Shown: positions 89 through 9,868 of the stretch, piece after piece
Numbering within the stretch: position 1 is the stretch's first letter
How the letters are laid out: every line of letters begins with the position of its first letter
NCBI RefSeq assembly: GCF_028609845.1
Contig: NZ_CP063191.1
Span: forward strand, 806,001 to 870,000
Length of the DNA: 64,000 bases
Reading direction: 5' to 3'
Source: Corynebacterium heidelbergense
GTDB lineage: Bacteria; Actinomycetota; Actinomycetes; Mycobacteriales; Mycobacteriaceae
Notes under the pieces: generated by a model
Database searches by the model: none
Told to the model about the DNA's origin: nothing
What the model saw: only the letters and a program-made list of their open reading frames with translations
Position numbers and translations under genes: made by a program

Positions 89-2335
89 GTGGCGGGTATG
101 GCTACCGTCGATCTCACACTGACCGGCATGACGTGTGCCTCCTGCGCCAATCGCATCGAACGCAAACTCAACAAGTTGGATGGCGTAAGCGCTAGCGTCA
201 ACTACGCCACGGAGAAAGCCCACGTCTCGAGCGAGGACGATCTGGACCCGGCACTCCTGGTTCAAACCGTCACGGGGATGGGTTACGGGGCCCAGGTAGA
301 GGCCACGGAAGAACCGGCCGGGTCCGCCGCCAACGAGTTGGCTTCACTGCGCCGCCGGTTGTGGATCGCGGTTGCGCTTTCCGTCCCAGTCATCGTTGTC
401 GCGATGGTGCCGCCGCTGCAGTTCCCGGGGTGGCAATGGTTCAGCGCCGTGCTCGCGGTGCCGGTGGTGGCGTGGGCTGGTTGGCCGTTCCACCGAGCAA
501 CATGGGTGAACGCCCGGCATGGGGCCGTCACGATGGACACGCTCATCACCGTGGGATCTATCACTGCGCTGTTCTGGTCCCTCATCTCTCTATTCCTTGG
601 GGACGCCGGTCACCTGGGCATGCGTCACAGCTGGAGCCTCATGCCGCACGTCGGCGCGGGTATGGGCGCGAGGGCGGCGATGGGGGATGTCTACTTTGAG
701 GTGGCCGCAGGTGTGGTCACCTTCGTCCTGGCCGGCCGCTACTTCGAGAAGAAGGCCAAGGCCCGGGCCGGGGAGGATATGCGGGCGCTGACGGAACTGG
801 GCGCGAAGCAAGTGACCATTGTCGACGGGGACCGAGAGCGTCGGGTTGATGCCGCCAAGGTGGCGGTGGGCACCCAGTTTGTTACCCGCCCGGGGGAGCG
901 GATCGCCACCGATGGGGTGGTCGAGCAGGGCACGGCCGCGGTGGATACCGCGATGCTGACGGGGGAGGCCGCGCCCGTCCACGTGGAGCCAGGTTCCGAG
1001 GTCGTGGGTGGCACGATCAGCACCAATGGACGGTTGGTCGTGCGGGCTACGAAAGTGGGGCAGCAGACAGCTCTGGCCCAGATTGCCCAGCTCGTAGAGC
1101 AGGCGCAGACCGGGAAAGCACAGGTCCAGCGCCTGGTGGATGCCGTGGCCCGCGTCTTCGTTCCCGTGGTGTTCGTGCTGGCGGCGATGACGCTGCTGGG
1201 TTGGGGCGTGCTGGCGGGCCAGTGGACCAAGGGGTTGACGGCCGCCGTGGCAGTCCTCATCATCGCGTGCCCATGCGCGCTCGGGCTGGCTACCCCGGTG
1301 GCCCTGCTGGTCGGCACCGGCCGCGGGGCGGCGAAGGGGATGCTCATTCGTGGCCCTGAGGTGCTGGAACGGGTTCGAGGTGTGCACACCGTGGTGTTCG
1401 ATAAAACCGGCACGTTGACGACGGGCCAGATGAGCGTCAGCGAGGTCCGCCTCACCGCGGGGGCCCAGTATGCAGAAGGTGAGGCAATCGCCCTGGCCGC
1501 GGCTGCCGAGATGGGCTCGGAACATCCGATCGCCACCGCGATTGTGCGGGCTGCGGGGGAGCGGGGGATCCCCGTACCCCGGGCCCGCGAGTTTGAGGCC
1601 ACCCCCGGCTGGGGTATCTCCGCCCTGGTGGCGGATGGTAAAGCGGAGCACCGGATAGAGGTTTGTCGGCCGAGCGGTGCACGGTCGAATCGCAACCAGA
1701 CGGGGGACCGTGACAACGAGACCGGGGCCGCCCAGACCGACGTGGAGTTGCGAGTAGACGGGGCCACGGTGGCGATCATCGGTGTGGCGGACCGACTCAA
1801 GCCGGGAGCTGCCACGGCCGTCCGCGACCTACGGTCCATGGGGATGGATGTTGTGTTGCTCTCCGGCGATAACCAGGAGGTGGCCAATTACGTCGGTGGG
1901 CTCGTGGGGTTGGACGCCACTAACATCCGCGCCGGTGTGAGCCCCCGGGGAAAGGTGGACACCATTCGCGAGTTGCAGCTAGCGGCGGGGCCACGGGGGA
2001 AGGTCGCGATGGTCGGAGACGGGATTAACGATTCGGCCGCTCTAGCCCAGGCAGACGTGGGGATGGCTATGGGAAGCGGGACGGACGCGGCGCTCCAGGC
2101 GTCCGATATATCCCTGGTGCGACCCGAAGTGGGCGCGGCCGTGGACGCATTGCGGTTAGCCAGGAAAACGTTCGGCACTATTAGGGTGAATCTATTTTGG
2201 GCAATGGCCTACAACGTGATCGCGTTGCCGATCGCGGCTATGGGATTACTGAATCCCATGCTCGCGGGTGCGGCGATGGCGTTGTCCAGTGTTTTCGTTG
2301 TGGGGAATAGTTTGCGCTTAAGGAGGTTTCAATGA
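89..2335 (+). CDS. copA: Copper-exporting P1B-type ATPase
   Basis: Pumps Cu(I) across the cytoplasmic membrane using ATP. One N-terminal heavy-metal domain carries GMTCASC (Cys16, Cys19). The transmembrane CPC metal site is near residue 394 (IIACPCALGLATP), the phosphorylated Asp is in DKTGTLT (about 438) and the hinge motif is GDGIND (about 643). The loop between the first membrane helices is rich in Met and His, as in copper pumps. The nucleotide domain has an Arg/Asn/Gly/Asp-rich insertion near residues 530-550. GTG at 89 has a G-run just upstream; ATG at 98 is a possible alternative start. It overlaps csoR by four bases, and the operator lies directly in front. Copper is the best-supported substrate, from the CPC motif and the CsoR partner. 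Confidence 0.95.
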   Translation: MAGMATVDLTLTGMTCASCANRIERKLNKLDGVSASVNYATEKAHVSSEDDLDPALLVQTVTGMGYGAQVEATEEPAGSAANELASLRRRLWIAVALSVPVIVVAMVPPLQFPGWQWFSAVLAVPVVAWAGWPFHRATWVNARHGAVTMDTLITVGSITALFWSLISLFLGDAGHLGMRHSWSLMPHVGAGMGARAAMGDVYFEVAAGVVTFVLAGRYFEKKAKARAGEDMRALTELGAKQVTIVDGDRERRVDAAKVAVGTQFVTRPGERIATDGVVEQGTAAVDTAMLTGEAAPVHVEPGSEVVGGTISTNGRLVVRATKVGQQTALAQIAQLVEQAQTGKAQVQRLVDAVARVFVPVVFVLAAMTLLGWGVLAGQWTKGLTAAVAVLIIACPCALGLATPVALLVGTGRGAAKGMLIRGPEVLERVRGVHTVVFDKTGTLTTGQMSVSEVRLTAGAQYAEGEAIALAAAAEMGSEHPIATAIVRAAGERGIPVPRAREFEATPGWGISALVADGKAEHRIEVCRPSGARSNRNQTGDRDNETGAAQTDVELRVDGATVAIIGVADRLKPGAATAVRDLRSMGMDVVLLSGDNQEVANYVGGLVGLDATNIRAGVSPRGKVDTIRELQLAAGPRGKVAMVGDGINDSAALAQADVGMAMGSGTDAALQASDISLVRPEVGAAVDALRLARKTFGTIRVNLFWAMAYNVIALPIAAMGLLNPMLAGAAMALSSVFVVGNSLRLRRFQ

Positions 2336-2613
2336 CCAGCGGATATGTCAGCGATAAGGCCCGCTATAGCGCGCGATTGAGGCGCATTGAGGGGCAGGTG
2401 AGAGGGTTGGAGCGAATGGTTGAGCAAGAGGCCTACTGCATCGATATTCTGACTCAGCTTGCCGCCCTGCAATCCGCGTTGAAAGGGGTTGGCCTCGCCT
2501 TACTGGAAGATCATATGAATCACTGTGTGGTGCACGCAGCGCGGGCCGGAGATGAACAAGCGCGCCAGAAAGTGGAGGAGGTGACCGCCGCGGTCGGCAG
2601 GTTGCTGAGGTGA
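2332..2613 (+). CDS. csoR: Copper-sensing transcriptional repressor CsoR
   Basis: A 93-residue all-helical DUF156 family repressor. The Cu(I) ligands of CsoR, Cys36, His61 and Cys65, fall at exactly the positions known for the Mycobacterium tuberculosis protein, separating it from formaldehyde- or persulfide-sensing relatives that lack this triad. The ATG lies inside the copA stop (ATGA), so the two are translationally coupled. It probably binds the inverted repeat at 68-86 and controls its own operon. Confidence 0.93.
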   Translation: MTSGYVSDKARYSARLRRIEGQVRGLERMVEQEAYCIDILTQLAALQSALKGVGLALLEDHMNHCVVHAARAGDEQARQKVEEVTAAVGRLLR

Positions 2614-2666: not shown

Positions 2667-2683
2667 ACGACAATCATTATCGT
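2667..2683. promoter_or_regulatory. Zur/Fur-like operator
   Basis: ACGACAATCATTATCGT is a 17-base palindrome around a central C with one mismatched pair out of eight. The AAT-N-ATT core resembles actinobacterial Zur and Fur boxes and not the DtxR box. It ends ten bases before the ATG of the ABC permease, so it lies over the promoter or leader of the transporter operon. Zinc versus iron control cannot be settled from the sequence. Confidence 0.6.
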
Positions 2684-2693
2684 CAAGCGGGAC

Positions 2694-3833
2694 ATGATCC
2701 CGATTGACCCCTCTACCCACCCGAGCGCGCCCGACGCGAGCGCGTCTTATCCACGCCCGTCGCACCCTCATCCCCGGCGACCCGCCCCCGGCGCGGTGCC
2801 CCCTCGCGTCCGCTGGGCGGCGCTTGCCCTCCTGCCCATCCTGGCCGCCTCCATTCTCGCGGCCACATCGCTGGGGGCCGCGGCCATCCCCCTGGGCGAA
2901 GCGAGCGGGTACATCTGGGCGGCCATCACAGGCGCCCAGCTGCCCCGCGAACAGTTCACGGACTATACCGTCGTCACCTCCATCCGCTTGCCCCGGGCCC
3001 TCCTAGCCGCGCTGGTCGGCGCGGGTCTCGGGGCCCTGGGTGTGGCAGCTCAGGCGATGGTGCGTAACCCGCTGGCGGATCCGTTCATCCTCGGCATCTC
3101 CTCCGGGGCCTCCGTGGGTGCTGCCGCCGTCATCGCCCTCGGCACCCTGGCCAGTTGGGGCGTGTATGGCCTGTCGATTGCGGCGTTCGCGAGCGCGTTA
3201 GGGGCGTCCACAATCGTTTACCTCCTGGCCCGGACGAAAGAGGGACTGGCACCGACCCGCCTCATCCTTGTCGGCGTGGTGCTCTCCTTCGGTTTCCAGG
3301 GGCTGACCAGCGCCATTGTGTTCTTCGAGCCGCGCGGGGAGGCCGCCCGAACGGTCATGTTCTGGCTGCTTGGCAGCCTCGGCGGGGCCTCCTGGTCCCA
3401 TATTCCCGTCGCCGTCGGCGCCGTAGTCATAACCGTGGTGGTCCTGTTCAGCCGCGCCCGGGTGCTCGATGTTCTCTCTACTGGGGACGCCGCCAGCCTG
3501 AGCATGGGCATCAACCCCAAGACAGTGCGAACCCAACTATTCGTCCTCGTCGCGTTGGGCACGGGAGTTCTGGTGGCCGTCAGCGGCACCATCGGGTTCG
3601 TGGGCCTCGTGATCCCCCACATCGTGCGGATGGTGGTGGGCCCAGCTCATCGCGCCATGGTAGTGCTGGCGCCGCTGATCGGGGCAATCCTGCTGGTGTG
3701 GGTGGACGTATTCTCCCGGAGCATCGTTCCGCCGCGGGAATTGCCGATCGGGGTGGTTACTGCCCTGCTGGGGGTGCCCATCTTCGTTCTCATCATCCGG
3801 TCCTCGCGCTATGTCTACGGGGGCAGCCGATGA
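2694..3833 (+). CDS. FecCD-family ABC transporter permease
   Basis: Membrane channel of a metal-chelate or cobalamin-type importer, about 379 residues. A hydrophilic Pro/His-rich N-terminus of about 35 residues precedes roughly ten hydrophobic helices. The segment around VRNPLADPFILGISSGAS and the later GTIGFVGLVIPHIVRM are hallmark FecCD motifs, the second being near the ATPase contact loop. Only one permease gene is present, so the channel is probably a homodimer. AGCGGGA upstream of ATG 2694 can serve as ribosome binding site. The stop overlaps the start of the ATPase gene (ATGA). This is the first gene of the operon behind the Zur/Fur-like box. Confidence 0.9.
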   Translation: MIPIDPSTHPSAPDASASYPRPSHPHPRRPAPGAVPPRVRWAALALLPILAASILAATSLGAAAIPLGEASGYIWAAITGAQLPREQFTDYTVVTSIRLPRALLAALVGAGLGALGVAAQAMVRNPLADPFILGISSGASVGAAAVIALGTLASWGVYGLSIAAFASALGASTIVYLLARTKEGLAPTRLILVGVVLSFGFQGLTSAIVFFEPRGEAARTVMFWLLGSLGGASWSHIPVAVGAVVITVVVLFSRARVLDVLSTGDAASLSMGINPKTVRTQLFVLVALGTGVLVAVSGTIGFVGLVIPHIVRMVVGPAHRAMVVLAPLIGAILLVWVDVFSRSIVPPRELPIGVVTALLGVPIFVLIIRSSRYVYGGSR

Positions 3834-4588
3834 CGCTTCAACCCCTGGGCGTGACGGTGGACGGGGCCCAGGTCGCCGTGGACGGGGCCACCATCGTCAC
3901 GAACGCCAGCTTCGCAGCTCAGCCTGGTGATTTCGTCGCGCTTGTGGGACCTAACGGATGCGGCAAAACAACCCTGCTGTCCACCCTCTACCGAGCCCGG
4001 AAGCTCAGCGGCGGGCAGATACGCGTCGGCGGGCAGGACCTAGCGGACCTGGGCATTCGGGACAGCGCCCGCCTCGTCGCCGCGCTACCGCAAAGCGAAA
4101 CGCACGAGCTCAACTTCCGGGCCGAGGAGGTCGTCAGCTTTGGCCGCCGAGCCCACCCGACGGATCGGGACGACGAGCTCATCACCGAAGCAATGGAGCT
4201 CGCCGGGGTGCGCCACCTGCGAGAAGCGCCGATTCTCAGCGTCTCCGGCGGCGAGCGGCAGCGGATTCTGCTCGCCCGCGCCATTGCCCAACACACTCCG
4301 GTGCTCGTCCTCGACGAGCCGACCAATCACCTGGACCTCAGCCATCAAGCCAAGTTGCTGCGCACCCTTCACACCCTCAAGCGCAGCCGGACGGTCCTCG
4401 CCGCGGTGCACGACGTGAATCTCGCTATGCATGCGGACCTCGTGGTGGTGATGGTCGACGGCACCGTGCGCTGCTCGGGACCGCCATCGGAGGTGCTCAC
4501 GCCCCAACTTGTCCAGGAGGTCTATGGCGTGCAGGCCGCCGCCGTGCGGCACCCGATCACCGGCAGGCAGGTCTTGCTGTTCGGTTGA
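3830..4588 (+). CDS. FecE/BtuD-type ABC transporter ATPase
   Basis: A 252-residue cytoplasmic ATPase that powers the importer with the neighbouring permease. Walker A is GPNGCGKTT (about 40-48), the signature is SVSGGERQR, Walker B is VLVLDEPTNHLD and the switch His follows in VHDVN. Length and motifs fit ATPases of siderophore, haem and cobalamin importers. The start is fixed by the four-base overlap with the permease stop. About 100 bases separate it from the binding-protein gene, the only sizeable gap in the operon. Confidence 0.92.
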   Translation: MTLQPLGVTVDGAQVAVDGATIVTNASFAAQPGDFVALVGPNGCGKTTLLSTLYRARKLSGGQIRVGGQDLADLGIRDSARLVAALPQSETHELNFRAEEVVSFGRRAHPTDRDDELITEAMELAGVRHLREAPILSVSGGERQRILLARAIAQHTPVLVLDEPTNHLDLSHQAKLLRTLHTLKRSRTVLAAVHDVNLAMHADLVVVMVDGTVRCSGPPSEVLTPQLVQEVYGVQAAAVRHPITGRQVLLFG

Positions 4589-4689
4589 GCCTCGCAAGGG
4601 TGGTCCCCCGCCCGCTCTGGCTCGGGCCTTTCGCGCTTGTGCCCCTCATTTCCACACCCCCCAACTTGTCCACCAGGAAAGGAATTACC

Positions 4690-5769
4690 GTGAAGAAATC
4701 CCCCGCCATCCCGCCACGCCACCTCCCGCCTCGCCACTTCCCGTCCAGCCCGGTCCCGCCATCCCGATCCGCCGCACTCCTGGCCACCGCCCTTCTGGCG
4801 GCCGCTGGGCTCACCGCCTGCGGAGCAGACGTGGAAGACACGCCGCAGGACCGCAACATCACCGTCACCAACTGCGGCGTCACGCAGACCTACCCCCGCC
4901 CGCAGCATCCCGTGGCCTATGACGTCTCGGCTATCGAGAAGATGTTCTCCCTGGGCCTGGCCGATCAGATGCGCGGCATCGTTATGCCCAAGACGGTCAA
5001 CAGCGCCATCGGCAAATCCCCCTACCACCAGGACTATCACTCGGTGGAGACCATCAGCGACCAGGTGCTGGGCCAAGAGGCGATCGTCAACGCCAAGGCC
5101 GACTGGGTCTTTGCCGGGTGGCAGGCCGGCTTTAGCCAGGAGCGGGGTGTCACGCCGCAGTCCTTGGACAAGTTGGGCATCCACAGCTACATGCAGGAGG
5201 AGACCTGCTACAACTACGGCGCCGGGGGCACCAAGGAAGCTAATCCCGCCGCCCCCGATCAGCCCATCGAGGCGATGTACCAGGACCTGCACAACCTGGG
5301 CGAGATCTTCGGCGTCCAGGATCGCGCGGAGAAGCTGGTCCGCGATCTGCGCGACCGGGAGCGCAGCCTCCACGACAAAGTGCAGGCCATCCCCGCCGCC
5401 GAGCGGCAGAAGGTCTTTGTCTACGACTCCGGGACGGATGAGCCGTACACCGCGGGCCGGCGAGCCGCGCTAAATTCGGTCATCGACTTGGCGGGCGGCC
5501 GCAGCGTGACCGGGGACGTGGATGCGCGCTTCACCACAGTGGGGTGGGAATCCATTGTGACGGCCGAGCCGGATGCCGTGGTGGTCATCGACTACAACAA
5601 GCAGCCAGTAGCGGACAAGATCAACTATCTGCGAACCCAATCACCAATCAAGGACACCCCGGCGGTGAAGAACAACCGGATTTACGTCATCGACTACGGG
5701 GAGGCGGTGAGCAACCCCCGCAACATCGAAGCGGCGGAGAAGCTTGCCGGATTCCTCGCCGGAAAGTAG
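4690..5769 (+). CDS. Periplasmic-binding-type lipoprotein of metal-chelate ABC importer
   Basis: A substrate-binding lipoprotein (359 residues) that would capture the ligand outside the membrane. GTG 4690 follows AGGAAAGG at a suitable distance. A Pro/His-rich n-region leads into a hydrophobic stretch ending in the lipobox LTAC, giving lipidated Cys44. Later sequence fits the Fe3+-siderophore/cobalamin binding family (PF01497): an N-terminal lobe with HPVAYDVSAIEKMFSLGL, a long connecting helix and a C-terminal lobe ending VSNPRNIEAAEKLAGFL. An open frame continues upstream through the ATPase gene but has no family features there. The true ligand is unknown; the operon suggests a self-made chelator. 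Confidence 0.9.
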   Translation: MKKSPAIPPRHLPPRHFPSSPVPPSRSAALLATALLAAAGLTACGADVEDTPQDRNITVTNCGVTQTYPRPQHPVAYDVSAIEKMFSLGLADQMRGIVMPKTVNSAIGKSPYHQDYHSVETISDQVLGQEAIVNAKADWVFAGWQAGFSQERGVTPQSLDKLGIHSYMQEETCYNYGAGGTKEANPAAPDQPIEAMYQDLHNLGEIFGVQDRAEKLVRDLRDRERSLHDKVQAIPAAERQKVFVYDSGTDEPYTAGRRAALNSVIDLAGGRSVTGDVDARFTTVGWESIVTAEPDAVVVIDYNKQPVADKINYLRTQSPIKDTPAVKNNRIYVIDYGEAVSNPRNIEAAEKLAGFLAGK

Positions 5770-5776
5770 GGGTTTC

Positions 5777-6652
5777 GTGCACAACAGCGCTGAAAATCCC
5801 CAGGGCGAAGCGAACCCGATGGCACGCACCGTCGCTGACCTGGTCGCCGCCGCGATCGCCACCGAAAGCACCGCCGATACCCCCACCGCTGTCCGGAGCG
5901 TGTTCTACATCGAACACGGCACGCGACTGGGCACACGGGTCGGCACGGGTGGGGAGGATGTGGTCTACCGCAACCGCTATGTCCTGGCCCGCATCGGCAC
6001 CAGCTTCGGGGCCTGCGCCTGCGAGGCCGGTGCGGTGGGCCCGGAGGTCGCGGACTTCTCGGGAATGCCGGCCGCCGACATTCTCACCCAGGCACCTGCG
6101 GAGGTGCGGATGGCGGTTTTGGACGCCTGGCTCGCCGAGCACGCGCCCCACCGCTCGCATCCGCTGGCCACCTCCGTGGAACTACCGACGGGCACCCCGC
6201 TGCAGCGAGCCCTGGCCCGCGACGCTGCCATCGTGGACCTGGTCGCCCCCCAGGTGGGGGACACCATCGCCGTGGTGGGGGTGGTAACTCCCCTCGTCGA
6301 AGGATTGCTCCGCCGCGGGGCACATCCCCGGCTGTGCGATCGCAACGCGGAGACCTGCGTGGGGTTGCCCGTCGAGCAGGATCTCGATGCTGTCCTGACC
6401 GGTGCCGACCGTGTCCTGGCTACCGGTATGACCGTTAGCGATGGCAGCTTCGATGTGATCCGCCAGCACTGCCTGTCCACCAACGCCCCGCTGTACATCT
6501 ACGCCCAATCCGGTACCGCCATCGTCCGTGATTTCCTCGGCGCGGGCGTGCGGGGAATGACCGCAGAGCACTTCCCCTTTTCCCAGTTCAGCGCGGACGC
6601 GACCCCCATGTACGTCTACCGCACCGGGCAGGAGGGTACGCGGGAGCTATGA
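5777..6652 (+). CDS. DUF364 (putative heavy-metal chelation domain) protein
   Basis: A cytoplasmic protein of about 291 residues resembling the DUF4213/DUF364 family, whose C-terminal half is named a putative heavy-metal chelation domain. The C-terminal part shows a Rossmann-like run (VGDTIAVVGVVTPLVEGLL) and the pattern VLATGMTVSDGSFDVI near the expected ligand pocket. GTG 5777 is preferred because AGTAGGGG lies just upstream; ATG 5819 and an overlapping ATG at 5744 are possible. Seven bases separate it from the binding-protein stop, and it overlaps the MFS gene by ATGA. Related proteins often sit beside metal ABC importers; the reaction is unproven. It could modify, bind or release the chelated metal. 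Confidence 0.75.
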   Translation: MHNSAENPQGEANPMARTVADLVAAAIATESTADTPTAVRSVFYIEHGTRLGTRVGTGGEDVVYRNRYVLARIGTSFGACACEAGAVGPEVADFSGMPAADILTQAPAEVRMAVLDAWLAEHAPHRSHPLATSVELPTGTPLQRALARDAAIVDLVAPQVGDTIAVVGVVTPLVEGLLRRGAHPRLCDRNAETCVGLPVEQDLDAVLTGADRVLATGMTVSDGSFDVIRQHCLSTNAPLYIYAQSGTAIVRDFLGAGVRGMTAEHFPFSQFSADATPMYVYRTGQEGTREL

Positions 6653-7821
6653 CGGATCGACACATCGCCACCCGAGTTTGGCCACTGCTCCTCGTCGCCG
6701 CGCTGGGTTTGGCGCCCTTCACCGTGTTCAGCAACTCCCTAGTGGACATCGCCGCCGATGCCGGGTCCACCGACTCTGCGGTGGGAAGCCTGCGGGGCCT
6801 TGGCGGCGTGGCCGCCATCCTCGTAGGCGTATTGTGCGCCCCGCTTATTGACGCGTTATCGCGGCCCCGGCTCATCGCCTGTGCCGCCGCCGTACTGGGC
6901 GTGGGCTGCGCTATCAGCACCGAGGGGTCCACCTGGGCCTGGGTGGCCTTCTGCGTACTCATCGGAGCAGGAACGGCGATCCTCAACCCCGCAGTGTCGG
7001 CCCAGGCCAGCGACACCTTTACTGACAAGGCGGATGCGGGGCGGGCGGCGACCCTGGTCAGTTCCACCATGACGCTTACTGCCATGCTGGCCGCGCCGCT
7101 GCTCGCGGGTCCCGCTCTGTGGTGGGGGTGGCGTGGAAACATGGTTGCCCTCGGGCTCGCCTTCGCCGCGGGGGCAGTGGTGTTCGCCCGTGGGGGTGGT
7201 TCGGGTCGCGCCGGGGTGGGGGTGGCGTCCCCAAGAACAAAACGCTATCCCGGACTGGCCGCCGCGGCCCCGCTGCTTGCGGTCTCCACGCTGCGCACTG
7301 CGGCGTTCATGGGTCAGTTGGCCTTTGTCGCCTCCCTGTACCACGAGCGATTCGGGCTGGGCCCGGAGGTTTTCGCCTGGGTGTGGAGCCTGTCCGGACT
7401 GTCCTTCTTCCTGGGCAACTTTGGGGGTGGGAAGGTGATTAAGGGGGTCCGGGCGCCGCAACGGATCGCGGGGCTGCTCACCGTGGCGGCGATGGCGAGC
7501 GCCCTGGCGATTGTGGGGTTGTGCTACGCCCCGACGCTGCCGCTGGCCCTCATCGCTACTTCCGCAGTGGCCGTGACCCACGCCGTGATCGCCGCGTGTG
7601 TGACCACGCTGCTGGTGCGCCAATCGGAGGCCGCCCAGGGCAGAGGCGCCATCCTGTCGCTCAACGGGGTGGGGCAGAGCGTCGGCGTGTTCCTGGGGGC
7701 CTCCGTGGCGGGGGCCGGGTTGGCGCTCGGGGGCTGGGGTGGAGTGGCCGCGGCGCTGGGCGGGGTGTCCATCCTCGCGGCGCTGGGCGGGGTGTGGGCA
7801 TGGTGGGAGGCGGGCCAATGA
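6649..7821 (+). CDS. MFS transporter, probable small-molecule exporter
   Basis: A 390-residue major facilitator with about twelve hydrophobic helices and no large soluble domain. The central loop between the two six-helix halves carries a Gly/Ser/Arg-rich stretch at about residues 182-200. It is translationally coupled on both sides: ATG 6649 sits in the DUF364 stop and its own stop overlaps the kinase start. In metallophore operons such a protein usually exports the product, the role proposed here; import of a precursor cannot be excluded. Confidence 0.85.
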   Translation: MTDRHIATRVWPLLLVAALGLAPFTVFSNSLVDIAADAGSTDSAVGSLRGLGGVAAILVGVLCAPLIDALSRPRLIACAAAVLGVGCAISTEGSTWAWVAFCVLIGAGTAILNPAVSAQASDTFTDKADAGRAATLVSSTMTLTAMLAAPLLAGPALWWGWRGNMVALGLAFAAGAVVFARGGGSGRAGVGVASPRTKRYPGLAAAAPLLAVSTLRTAAFMGQLAFVASLYHERFGLGPEVFAWVWSLSGLSFFLGNFGGGKVIKGVRAPQRIAGLLTVAAMASALAIVGLCYAPTLPLALIATSAVAVTHAVIAACVTTLLVRQSEAAQGRGAILSLNGVGQSVGVFLGASVAGAGLALGGWGGVAAALGGVSILAALGGVWAWWEAGQ

Positions 7822-8747
7822 TGGGGCAGGGACATTGTTGGGGCCACCACGGAGAGATCCTCCAGGGGAGCTTCACGGGGATCGGACAGGGCCTGGTGAG
7901 CCTGCCCATTGCCTCCCGGGGCAGTTGGGCTCGCTTCACAGTGGATCGGCATTCCCCCGCATCCGTCGAGCCCCCGGCCACCGACTGCTACGAGGGCCAG
8001 AGCCGCGGGCTGAGCCGGATTCGATGCAGCTCCTGGCGCTCGAAAACCGCCGCGGCTGCGCACCTGGCGCTAGAGCACATCGCCGCATATCGGCCGGAGG
8101 TCGCCACATGGACCGGGAGCCTGGAGGTGGGCAGCTCCCTGCCGCCTGGTTGGGGGATGGGCTCGTCTACCTCCGACATCGTTGCCGCCATCCGAGCAAT
8201 CGCGAACGCGGCAGGCATCACCTTGCCCCCGGAGGCCATCGGCCGCATCGCCGTGCGGGCGGAAGGGGCCAGCGACCCCCACGGGGAGGCGCTTCCCGTG
8301 CTCTACGCCCAGCGGCGCGGCCACGTTGTGCGGCGCTGGGACCGGCCCCTGCCGCCGCTGGTGCTGGTGGGGTGCCGGTGCGGGCAGCCGGTGGACACTG
8401 TGGGAACCCCGCCGCTTGAGGCCGATACCGAGTACGACGAGCTTCACACCCGGTTGGATGTGGCGATCCTGCGCAGCGATGCGAGGGCCATCGGGGAGGT
8501 TGCCACCCGCAGTGCGGAGTTGAACCAGGCCCGGGTGCCCAAGCAGCGGTTCGGGGAGCTAGTCGAGATCTGCGCTGATTGCGGTGGGGTGGGGGTGCAG
8601 GTCGCCCACAGCGGCGCGGTCGGCGGCATTCTTGTGGACGCCACCGCGCCGGGCGCTGCTGCGCAGTGGGCGCGATGCCGCGCAGCCCTGAACCATGCTG
8701 GGTTCCCGAAGACGGTGGACGAGCTGGTGGGGAGCATGGCGCAATGA
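7818..8747 (+). CDS. PduX-like GHMP kinase (candidate L-serine/L-threonine kinase)
   Basis: A 309-residue GHMP-superfamily kinase. The N-terminal GHHGEILQG (about 9-17) matches the GELIQG motif of PduX-type L-threonine kinases, and GMGSSTSDI (about 113-121) matches their ATP-binding loop better than the generic GLGSSA form. By family it would phosphorylate the side-chain hydroxyl of threonine or serine. There is no cobalamin synthesis gene nearby to use phosphothreonine, whereas the next gene encodes a cysteine-synthase-fold enzyme that could take an O-phospho amino acid as substrate. ATG 7818 overlaps the MFS stop (ATGA), and the stop overlaps the next start. Confidence 0.8.
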   Translation: MMGQGHCWGHHGEILQGSFTGIGQGLVSLPIASRGSWARFTVDRHSPASVEPPATDCYEGQSRGLSRIRCSSWRSKTAAAAHLALEHIAAYRPEVATWTGSLEVGSSLPPGWGMGSSTSDIVAAIRAIANAAGITLPPEAIGRIAVRAEGASDPHGEALPVLYAQRRGHVVRRWDRPLPPLVLVGCRCGQPVDTVGTPPLEADTEYDELHTRLDVAILRSDARAIGEVATRSAELNQARVPKQRFGELVEICADCGGVGVQVAHSGAVGGILVDATAPGAAAQWARCRAALNHAGFPKTVDELVGSMAQ

Positions 8748-9868
8748 GAATTCACGATCACGCAGCCGGCGCCTTGGGGCAACCGGACCTCATCGACTTG
8801 GGGGAGGGGTTGTATGTCCTGCGATTCGAATCGATGAAGGTGGCCTCTGCGGAAGGGGCGGTGCGCAGTGTGCTGCGGGATGGGAAGGTACGCCCTGGGG
8901 GCACGGTCGTCGATTCATCTAGCGGAATCTACGCCCATGCCCTGGCCCTGGCGTGCCACCGGCATGGCTTGAGGTGCCACATTGTGGGGTCTACGACGGT
9001 GGATCCCACGCTGGTTGCGCAGTTGCGGTTGCTCGGCGCGACGGTGGAGCGCATGCCGTCGTCCGATTCCCTGCGCCTGGACCAGCACCGCCGCGTGGGT
9101 CGGATACAGCGATTGTTGGCGGAGAACCCCGGGTGGTACTGGATGCAGCAATACCACTGCAGCCGCCATTACGAGGGTTATCGACCTCTTGGGGACGCCA
9201 CCTACACAGCGCTTGCCGATGCGGGGCACGGGGAGCGGATACGCCTCGTGGCCGCAGTGGGTTCCGGGGCCTCCTCGGCGGGACTGGGGGAGGGAATGCG
9301 GGCGGCGGGCGCGGATGTGGAGATCGTGGGCGTGCAGCCCTTCGGCAGCGTGACTTTCGGTTCGGCGGATGTGCCGGACCCGGACATGCTCATCGCGGGG
9401 ATCGGTAGCTCCATCGAGTTTCGGAATGTGCGCCCGGAGATCTTTGCCGCTATCCACTGGGTTTCCTTCGAGGTGGCCCGGGCCGGGGCGCGTGATGCCC
9501 TGCGGCAGCACGGGCTGTTTGCGGGCTTGTCCACCGGGGCTTGCTGGGCGGTTGCTCGGTACGAGCATGGTGGTCATCGCGGACGCGATGGCGACGATGG
9601 GCGGGGCAGCGACAGTGGGCTAGGCAGCGACAGTCGGCTAGGCAGCAGGCGCGGCATCCAGGACGGGGACAGACGCGAGGGGAAAGACAGCAGACGGGCC
9701 ACGGTGTTCGTGGCCCCGGATACGGGGCACCGCTACCTGCACAGCGTCTTCGAGGGACCGGATAGCCAGTTAGGGGACTTACAACCCTCTTGCGTGGATG
9801 AGGGTGGCGGCGGCCTCCCGGAGTTGCCGTGGTCTATGACGAGGCACCCGGAGCGGTGGGCAGGGTAG
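8744..9868 (+). CDS. Cysteine-synthase-fold PLP enzyme (candidate beta-replacement synthase)
   Basis: A 374-residue fold-type II PLP protein. Lys32 in FESMK is the likely Schiff-base lysine. DSSSGIYAHALA (about 57-68) occupies the place of the SSGNTG substrate loop of cysteine synthase but lacks its Asn, and GSGASSAGLG replaces the phosphate-binding GTGGT-type loop. These changes argue against ordinary cysteine synthesis. A hydrophilic Gly/Asp/Arg/Ser insertion near residues 285-320 contains an 18-base tandem repeat. The start overlaps the kinase stop. SbnA-like enzymes use O-phosphoserine to build 2,3-diaminopropionate precursors; a comparable step using the kinase product is inferred here. 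Confidence 0.78.
   Translation: MRIHDHAAGALGQPDLIDLGEGLYVLRFESMKVASAEGAVRSVLRDGKVRPGGTVVDSSSGIYAHALALACHRHGLRCHIVGSTTVDPTLVAQLRLLGATVERMPSSDSLRLDQHRRVGRIQRLLAENPGWYWMQQYHCSRHYEGYRPLGDATYTALADAGHGERIRLVAAVGSGASSAGLGEGMRAAGADVEIVGVQPFGSVTFGSADVPDPDMLIAGIGSSIEFRNVRPEIFAAIHWVSFEVARAGARDALRQHGLFAGLSTGACWAVARYEHGGHRGRDGDDGRGSDSGLGSDSRLGSRRGIQDGDRREGKDSRRATVFVAPDTGHRYLHSVFEGPDSQLGDLQPSCVDEGGGGLPELPWSMTRHPERWAG
9605..9646 (+). repeat. 18-bp tandem repeat inside PLP-enzyme gene
   Basis: The unit GGCAGCGACAGTSGGCTA occurs twice back to back (9605-9622 and 9623-9640) with one base different, followed by a partial third copy. The unit is a multiple of three, so it adds GSDSGL-like residues without breaking the frame. 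It sits in a low-complexity insertion not expected in the enzyme fold. Confidence 0.9.

Follow-up and report, generated by a model that had tools for sequence, protein, structure and literature searches.

Molecules that scavenge zinc are less well known than the iron siderophores. One of them, ethylenediaminedisuccinate (EDDS), has been described as a Zur-regulated zincophore that is made without the typical enzymes of the nonribosomal peptide synthetase (NRPS) or NRPS-independent siderophore synthetase (NIS) type (PMC4993170, PMC9252823), and an EDDS-like cluster has been reported in Corynebacterium striatum (PMC10486106). Here we analyze a seven-gene operon of Corynebacterium heidelbergense, located in a stretch of 64,000 nucleotides (NZ_CP063191.1, positions 806,001 to 870,000; hereafter "the window"), which encodes a FecBCD-type importer, a DUF364 protein, a transporter of the major facilitator superfamily (MFS), a GHMP-superfamily kinase and a pyridoxal phosphate (PLP)-dependent enzyme related to SbnA. 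Our reading is that Zur represses the operon and that its products synthesize a zincophore, a small ligand of the amino-acid type that binds zinc, release it from the cell and take it up again; we put the probability of this reading at about three in four, with zinc as the most likely metal.

The operon and the described metallophore systems

Positions and strands were re-checked on the window sequence, which confirmed seven genes on one strand downstream of a Zur-type palindrome (Table 1); gene order, coordinates and Pfam domains agree in this respect with the first-pass annotation, made from the letters alone. It had also described the junctions: the four ATGA overlaps (permease/ATPase, DUF364/MFS, MFS/kinase and kinase/PLP) and the 101-base gap between the ATPase and binding-protein genes stand, whereas the 7-base gap upstream of the DUF364 gene holds only for the GTG start at 5777 and becomes 49 bases with the ATG at 5819, a start preferred by codon usage and in agreement with the N-termini assigned to homologues. 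The importer set is complete in the window, with permease, ATPase and Peripla_BP_2 protein all recognized by Pfam. The source genome (2,329,978 bases in two contigs) contains a single DUF364 match. Gene maps here and below combine codon-usage calls with six-frame profile searches, as the longest-open-frame map is unreliable in GC-rich DNA. The genes of a copper-type P-type ATPase and of a CsoR-like repressor (window 89-2613) stop 54 bases upstream of the box.

Table 1. Features of the operon (window coordinates)
Feature	Position	Strand	Remarks
Zur-type box, 15-bp palindrome CGACAATCATTATCG	2668-2682		11 bases upstream of first ATG (2694)
FecCD-type ABC permease (importer)	2694-3833	+	Pfam FecCD 7.9e-86; codon usage favours start at 2796
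ABC ATPase of importer	3830-4588	+	Pfam ABC_tran 1.1e-28; ATGA overlap with permease gene
Substrate-binding lipoprotein of importer	4690-5769	+	Peripla_BP_2 8.5e-18; LTAC lipobox spotted by eye in translation
DUF364 protein (PF04016)	5819-6652 (frame extends back to GTG 5777)	+	Pfam DUF364 6.7e-6
MFS transporter (presumed exporter)	6649-7821	+	MFS_1 1.4e-19
GHMP-superfamily kinase (presumed serine or threonine kinase)	7818-8747	+	GHMP_kinases_N 1e-10, GHMP_kinases_C 9.1e-5; motif PPGWGMGSS
SbnA-related PLP-dependent enzyme, low-complexity insert near C-terminus	8744-9868	+	PALP 1.8e-33

As a reference for EDDS we used a locus (L247) of genome G502, which we infer to be the EDDS operon (aes genes) of Amycolatopsis japonica, both as to the organism and as to the identity of the genes; seven PLP enzyme matches were listed in this genome and five of them were inspected with their surroundings. 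Four genes follow each other there (L247:6657-11411), encoding an SbnB-like OCD protein (PF02423, 9.6e-27), an Orn/DAP-type decarboxylase (PF02784, 2.1e-15), an SbnA-like enzyme and a MATE transporter (MatE), with a one-mismatch Zur-like site at 6597, 45 bases upstream of the OCD gene. EDDS biosynthesis resembles the window operon in its Zur control and in the lack of typical NRPS and NIS enzymes, and the presumed EDDS operon also contains genes for an SbnA-like PLP enzyme and for an exporter. The remaining genes differ: SbnB-like OCD, PLP decarboxylase and MATE domains are all absent from the seven window proteins according to Pfam, while the DUF364, kinase and FecBCD profiles, which together with MFS characterize the window operon, have no match in L247. 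Even the common PLP enzyme is distant: it scores 4.5e-24 with our profile A1, and the window enzyme, one of the sequences from which A1 was built, scores 2.6e-153. Because the SbnB-like enzyme, the decarboxylase and the MATE transporter are missing here, the core of the present family consists of the PLP enzyme and DUF364 and apparently represents a separate pathway. The kind of system, an NRPS-/NIS-independent zincophore with an SbnA-like enzyme, is known, and the enzyme set is new; the earlier proposal that the chemistry would differ from characterized families had overlooked EDDS, whose presumed operon encodes other enzymes.

A further comparison is with sbnA, sbnB and sbnI of staphyloferrin B synthesis. 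The window has a kinase gene beside that of an SbnA-related PLP enzyme, which retains the lysine and the positions of R132 and Y152; the enzyme nevertheless remains below the SbnA cut-off, and the seven proteins include neither SbnB nor a NIS synthetase. Flanking proteins of other loci (86 of 136 proteins) match 160 families, and the 25 of these that were listed do not include SbnB either. The parallel drawn earlier between SbnI/SbnA and the last two genes of the operon is retained for the PLP enzyme and weakened for the kinase: SbnI, a ParB-type kinase of a different fold, is an analogue rather than a relative of the GHMP kinase. With the opine-like zincophores staphylopine and pseudopaline the operon shares the zinc-controlled plan of synthesis, export and import, but not their enzymes, as Pfam and NCBIfam assign none of the seven proteins a domain of the nicotianamine-synthase-like or opine-dehydrogenase kind. 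Staphylopine uses an Opp-type importer, as does a part of the family described below.

The structure of a DUF364 protein was published in 2010, its role in metal chelation being a guess, and DUF364 genes were found to be widespread neighbours of metal ABC transporters (PMC2954201). The window protein resembles the solved DUF364 proteins Dhaf4260/3l5o and 3npg in its metal-transporter neighbourhood and in its Rossmann part, which fits PF04016 and 3npg; a PLP partner and Zur control, which distinguish it from them, are not mentioned in the accessible part of that report (PMC2954201). The literature searched, which covers few subscription papers, gave no description of a PLP plus DUF364 pathway or of its product; PMC2954201 and PMC4046660 are among the DUF364 papers it includes.

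Conservation of the PLP enzyme and the DUF364 protein

A profile calculated from an alignment of 14 PLP enzymes was run on the named genome collection and gave 525 pattern matches and 484 relatives, from which the best 80 loci were retained; since these are the best of 484, the percentages given below lean upwards. Neighbours were sought by six-frame profile searches up to 9 kb around the PLP gene, with thresholds of our own choice, and the 60 loci of at least 20 kb were regarded as full-length. The genera represented include Corynebacterium, Tsukamurella, Rhodococcus, Kocuria, Rothia, Austwickia, Kribbella, Nocardiopsis, Pseudonocardia, Kibdelosporangium, Amycolatopsis and Streptomyces. DUF364 is found in 71 of the 80 loci and in 56 of the 60 full-length ones, and an MFS gene, either of the window type or of another, in 54/60. 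The importer is variable: a FecCD permease is present in 32/60 and an Opp-type binding protein in 19/60 full-length loci, DUF364 being accompanied by an importer of one or the other type in 43/60, i.e. the same PLP plus DUF364 core is paired with two unrelated importers. Other genes appear in subsets only, namely the kinase (30/80; 21/60 full-length), a methyltransferase of the MTS family (27/80; 21/60 full-length) and a PhyH dioxygenase (9/60 full-length), while ATP-grasp and argininosuccinate-lyase-like genes were found in none of the full-length loci (ATP-grasp in 2/80). As the kinase accompanies only 30 of the 80 loci, the PLP enzyme and DUF364 are the core of the family.

A tree of 108 PLP sequences (FastTree), for which two G502 enzymes (that of L247 and one more) served as the root and are thus outside by choice, places the window enzyme in a clade of 100 sequences (support 0.79; 0.94 without G188, a Corynebacterium genome), with 5 to 8 other sequences branching earlier. 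Enzymes whose loci have ATP-grasp instead of DUF364 form a nested group inside this clade. Two enzymes fall outside of it (L053, L137); their loci also possess DUF364, and in each a one-mismatch Zur-like site lies about 40-60 bases upstream of the first cluster gene.

The kinase itself is found in 3/201 genomes of the genus (including the source genome; one copy has internal stops) and in 49/397 genomes and 21/85 genera of the order, while the kinase alone, searched against the genome contigs, yielded no relative. We collected 20 kinase-bearing surroundings, 2 from the genus and 18 from the 48 other genomes of the order, mostly the best matches. Kinase, PLP enzyme, DUF364 and FecBCD occur together in 16 of them (tblastn), among which L053 is diverged and has an ATP-grasp gene. 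Only the kinase is present in L049, the kinase and a distant PLP enzyme in L051 and L052, and L035 is decayed. The kinase-PLP-DUF364 trio that had been proposed, with its conservation beside FecBCD genes suggested as a test, is thus conserved among kinase-bearing loci, and PLP plus DUF364 is the core of the wider family, of which the kinase is not a constant member.

The complete seven-gene order recurs on a 121-kb plasmid of Tsukamurella tyrosinosolvens (L177, NZ_LR134468.1 39069-45751), where the sixth gene, annotated as hypothetical, matches the kinase profile at 1e-132, and on a contig of C. falsenii (JVKJ01000003.1). The plasmid location makes spread of the operon by plasmids possible. 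The plasmid operon adjoins a sodium/proton antiporter operon. In the family that holds Pseudonocardia (f14) the PLP enzyme is present at 1e-100 or better in 136/390 genomes; in Corynebacterium it is rare, with only 11/242 genomes passing 1e-25, of which the source genome, G158 (where the operon is also present), G188 and G083 look like members. Seven of the 11 match at about 1e-26, and the three of these that were viewed, like the second match of G158, were rejected, as they look like ordinary cysteine synthases beside serine acetyltransferase (by eye). In G083 the operon is a decayed copy (L035 6444-11355) with no match to the binding protein, which indicates that the system can be lost.

The Zur-type box

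The 13-bp core of the box fits GANAATSATTNTC exactly. This strict core occurs once in the window, versus 0.01 expected from shuffles, and the site at the operon is the only one in the whole 2.33-Mb genome. Compared with the consensus tGaNNatSatNNtCa derived by chromatin immunoprecipitation (ChIP) for Zur of Streptomyces coelicolor (PMC5472717), the box has two mismatches, both at the outermost bases. The same C/G-flanked form also precedes the Tsukamurella operons (CGATAATGATTATCG in L128 and CGAAAATGATTGTCG in L177). SCO0475 is presumably a homologue of the window importer. It has been labelled Zur-regulated (PMC4726154).

Among the 80 loci the strict core was found in 25 (27 matches), compared to a mean of 0.10 and a maximum of 3 loci for 119 half-site permutations. 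A called cluster gene begins within 350 bases downstream of 22 of the 27 matches, and 11 of these 22 separate a kinase gene from a divergent PLP gene. L119 and L121 contribute two matches each that have no called gene start nearby, although in the promoter-gap analysis one match of either pair falls into the gap upstream of the methyltransferase gene; the last match sits at unlabelled genes. In the sample of 20 loci from the order, 10 have the strict core; the control mean is 0.15, but three controls that shift only the free base reach 5. When up to one mismatch to the 15-base consensus is allowed, a site is present in the cluster promoter gap of 60/80 loci, versus 4.7 expected from equal-length windows at random places in the same loci, a control not matched for base composition. 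The conserved gene set and the conserved Zur-like box ahead of it together support the interpretation, put forward earlier, of the operon as a make-export-import system for a metallophore.

Elsewhere in the source genome, a two-mismatch Zur-like site is situated 33 bases upstream of a ZnuA-like gene whose product has a His-rich loop (by eye; L186, C1:411681), and a site of the looser 15-base pattern (up to two mismatches) marks the start of a metal ABC operon adjoining a DtxR/MntR-like regulator (L196).

Proposed pathway and alternatives

Gene set, gene order, the box and their conservation are read from the sequence; the route outlined here, including substrates, order of reactions, direction of the MFS transporter, metal and product, is our interpretation of them. 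Under zinc scarcity Zur would leave the box at 2668-2682. The GHMP kinase would phosphorylate serine (or threonine) and so sustain the supply of the O-phospho-amino acid; clusters without the kinase may get by on the O-phosphoserine that general serine synthesis provides. The SbnA-like enzyme would then eliminate the phosphate and couple the aminoacrylate so formed to another amino acid through the amino group of the latter. The product of this reaction would be an N-linked amino-polycarboxylate, on which the DUF364 enzyme could carry out a second step in its nucleotide-binding cleft. The product would be exported by the MFS transporter, and its zinc complex returned by the FecBCD importer.

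The relationship of the PLP enzyme to SbnA is apparent from its match to the SbnA model TIGR03945 (1.6e-36, 125.9 bits; below the cut-off of 349.95) and from the best solved relatives of the clade profile, SbnA 5d84, 5d86 and 5d87 (7.4e-25). K32, R117 and Y137 are invariant in the 14 relatives and align with K47, R132 and Y152 of SbnA, while the position of S185 is occupied by G173 in the clade alignment; these four SbnA residues we take to bind PLP and O-phosphoserine. The window enzyme also carries a low-complexity insert of about 35-40 residues (window 9566-9697; repeats such as DSGLGSDSRLGS) ahead of the conserved DTGHRY motif, which is not found in the aligned relatives.

The DUF364 protein, being the most constant partner, is likely the second enzyme of the pathway. 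Its match to Pfam exceeds the cut-off (26.2 bits versus 23) and spans positions 4-85 of the 147 in the profile, i.e. the C-terminal Rossmann part only; about the first 150 residues, including the place of the enolase-like N-terminal domain, have no Pfam match. A profile of the window family matches 3npg at 7e-6, with the invariant D174 aligned to a glutamate of 3npg, which by inference corresponds to Glu148, assigned to nucleotide binding in the DUF364 structure (PMC2954201).

Taken together, we lean towards regarding the SbnA-like PLP plus DUF364 core as an undescribed, widespread class of NRPS-/NIS-independent zincophore systems in Actinomycetota, whose members differ in having the kinase, the methyltransferase or the PhyH dioxygenase and in the types of importer and exporter used, with DUF364 as a metallophore-forming enzyme. 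If so, Streptomyces, Kribbella, Nocardiopsis, Pseudonocardia, Kocuria, Tsukamurella and a few Corynebacterium would harbour a new class, and DUF364, whose role has so far been guessed from its structure (PMC2954201), would gain a testable function.

A number of observations weigh against a zincophore operon of this kind. It is the box alone that assigns the metal, and boxes of the Fur family resemble each other. By looser patterns the box is not outstanding: the window contains 19 sites with up to two mismatches to tGaNNatSatNNtCa, four of them with one, and the genome 16 sites with up to two mismatches to the 15-base pattern (4 for the reversed control), two of which are better than the box; all 15 others were inspected by eye, and most are at genes without an evident link to zinc. 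Two other sites in the genome match TGANAATSATTNTCA with one mismatch, the box with two. The Corynebacterium genome G188 has DUF364, MFS, PLP and FecBCD genes without the kinase or the box (best site with 3 mismatches). DUF364 is lacking in 9/80 loci, two of which have ATP-grasp instead, and the MFS gene in 6/60 full-length loci; the nearest relative of the window PLP enzyme in the tree, from Austwickia chelonae (L115), has no DUF364 within 9 kb. Finally, DUF364 might act on the imported complex rather than on a biosynthetic intermediate.

The alternative that survives best is a variant of the zincophore operon, in which the kinase acts on threonine or homoserine and the kinase-bearing clusters make a ligand of the 2,3-diaminobutyrate type or another one. 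GHMP-type amino-acid kinases include PduX (threonine) and ThrB (homoserine), and the kinase profile finds homoserine kinases, weakly (2.8e-4, 1.1e-3). The specific label "PduX-like" given in the first-pass annotation was not confirmed, as NCBIfam returns only weak GHMP matches (best: mevalonate kinase, 7.4e-7) and no PduX model. The kinase was not found in the neighbourhood of the PLP gene in 50/80 loci nor, at 1e-6, anywhere in the genomes of two of three hosts of kinase-less clusters (G649 and G650, the latter possibly a mixed record, as its 12.4 Mb are more than expected for its name; G651 has one elsewhere). The phospho-substrate should therefore be obtainable without it, which fits O-phosphoserine, as do the retained positions of SbnA R132 and Y152, so that we consider this variant possible but doubtful.

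That the operon is of the EDDS type, following the EDDS route to EDDS itself or a closely related compound, appears unlikely in spite of the Zur-like box and SbnA-like enzyme that the presumed EDDS operon likewise has and of the EDDS-like cluster of C. striatum: we rejected membership because only the PLP enzyme of that operon has a counterpart in the window, a distant one, and the DUF364, kinase and FecBCD profiles have no match in L247.

Similarly improbable is a system for iron or for several metals, controlled by DtxR/IdeR or another regulator of the Fur family. Iron chelates are frequent substrates of FecBCD importers, the boxes of Fur-family regulators resemble one another, and a relative from G502 (L234:5923-11742), with FecBCD, a core-type PLP enzyme, an ATP-grasp ligase in place of DUF364 and a methyltransferase, has no Zur-like site with up to one mismatch in 19.5 kb and perhaps serves another metal or ligand. 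The ChIP-derived Zur consensus nevertheless fits the cluster promoter gap in three quarters of the loci (60/80), and the box is unlike the DtxR consensus.

Least likely of all is uptake only, with FecBCD importing a foreign chelate from which DUF364 frees the metal while the kinase and the PLP enzyme perform unrelated amino-acid chemistry: metal ABC transporters do widely adjoin DUF364 genes (PMC2954201), but the MFS gene accompanies most of the full-length clusters, PLP and DUF364 remain paired despite the change of importer type, and in 11 loci the strict core lies between the kinase and PLP genes.

In one further locus (L140:4964-7267) we found a protein in which a class II tRNA synthetase domain is fused with a methylaspartate mutase chain of the MutE-like type, and its gene clusters with lyase, ATP-grasp, GHMP kinase and PLP genes.

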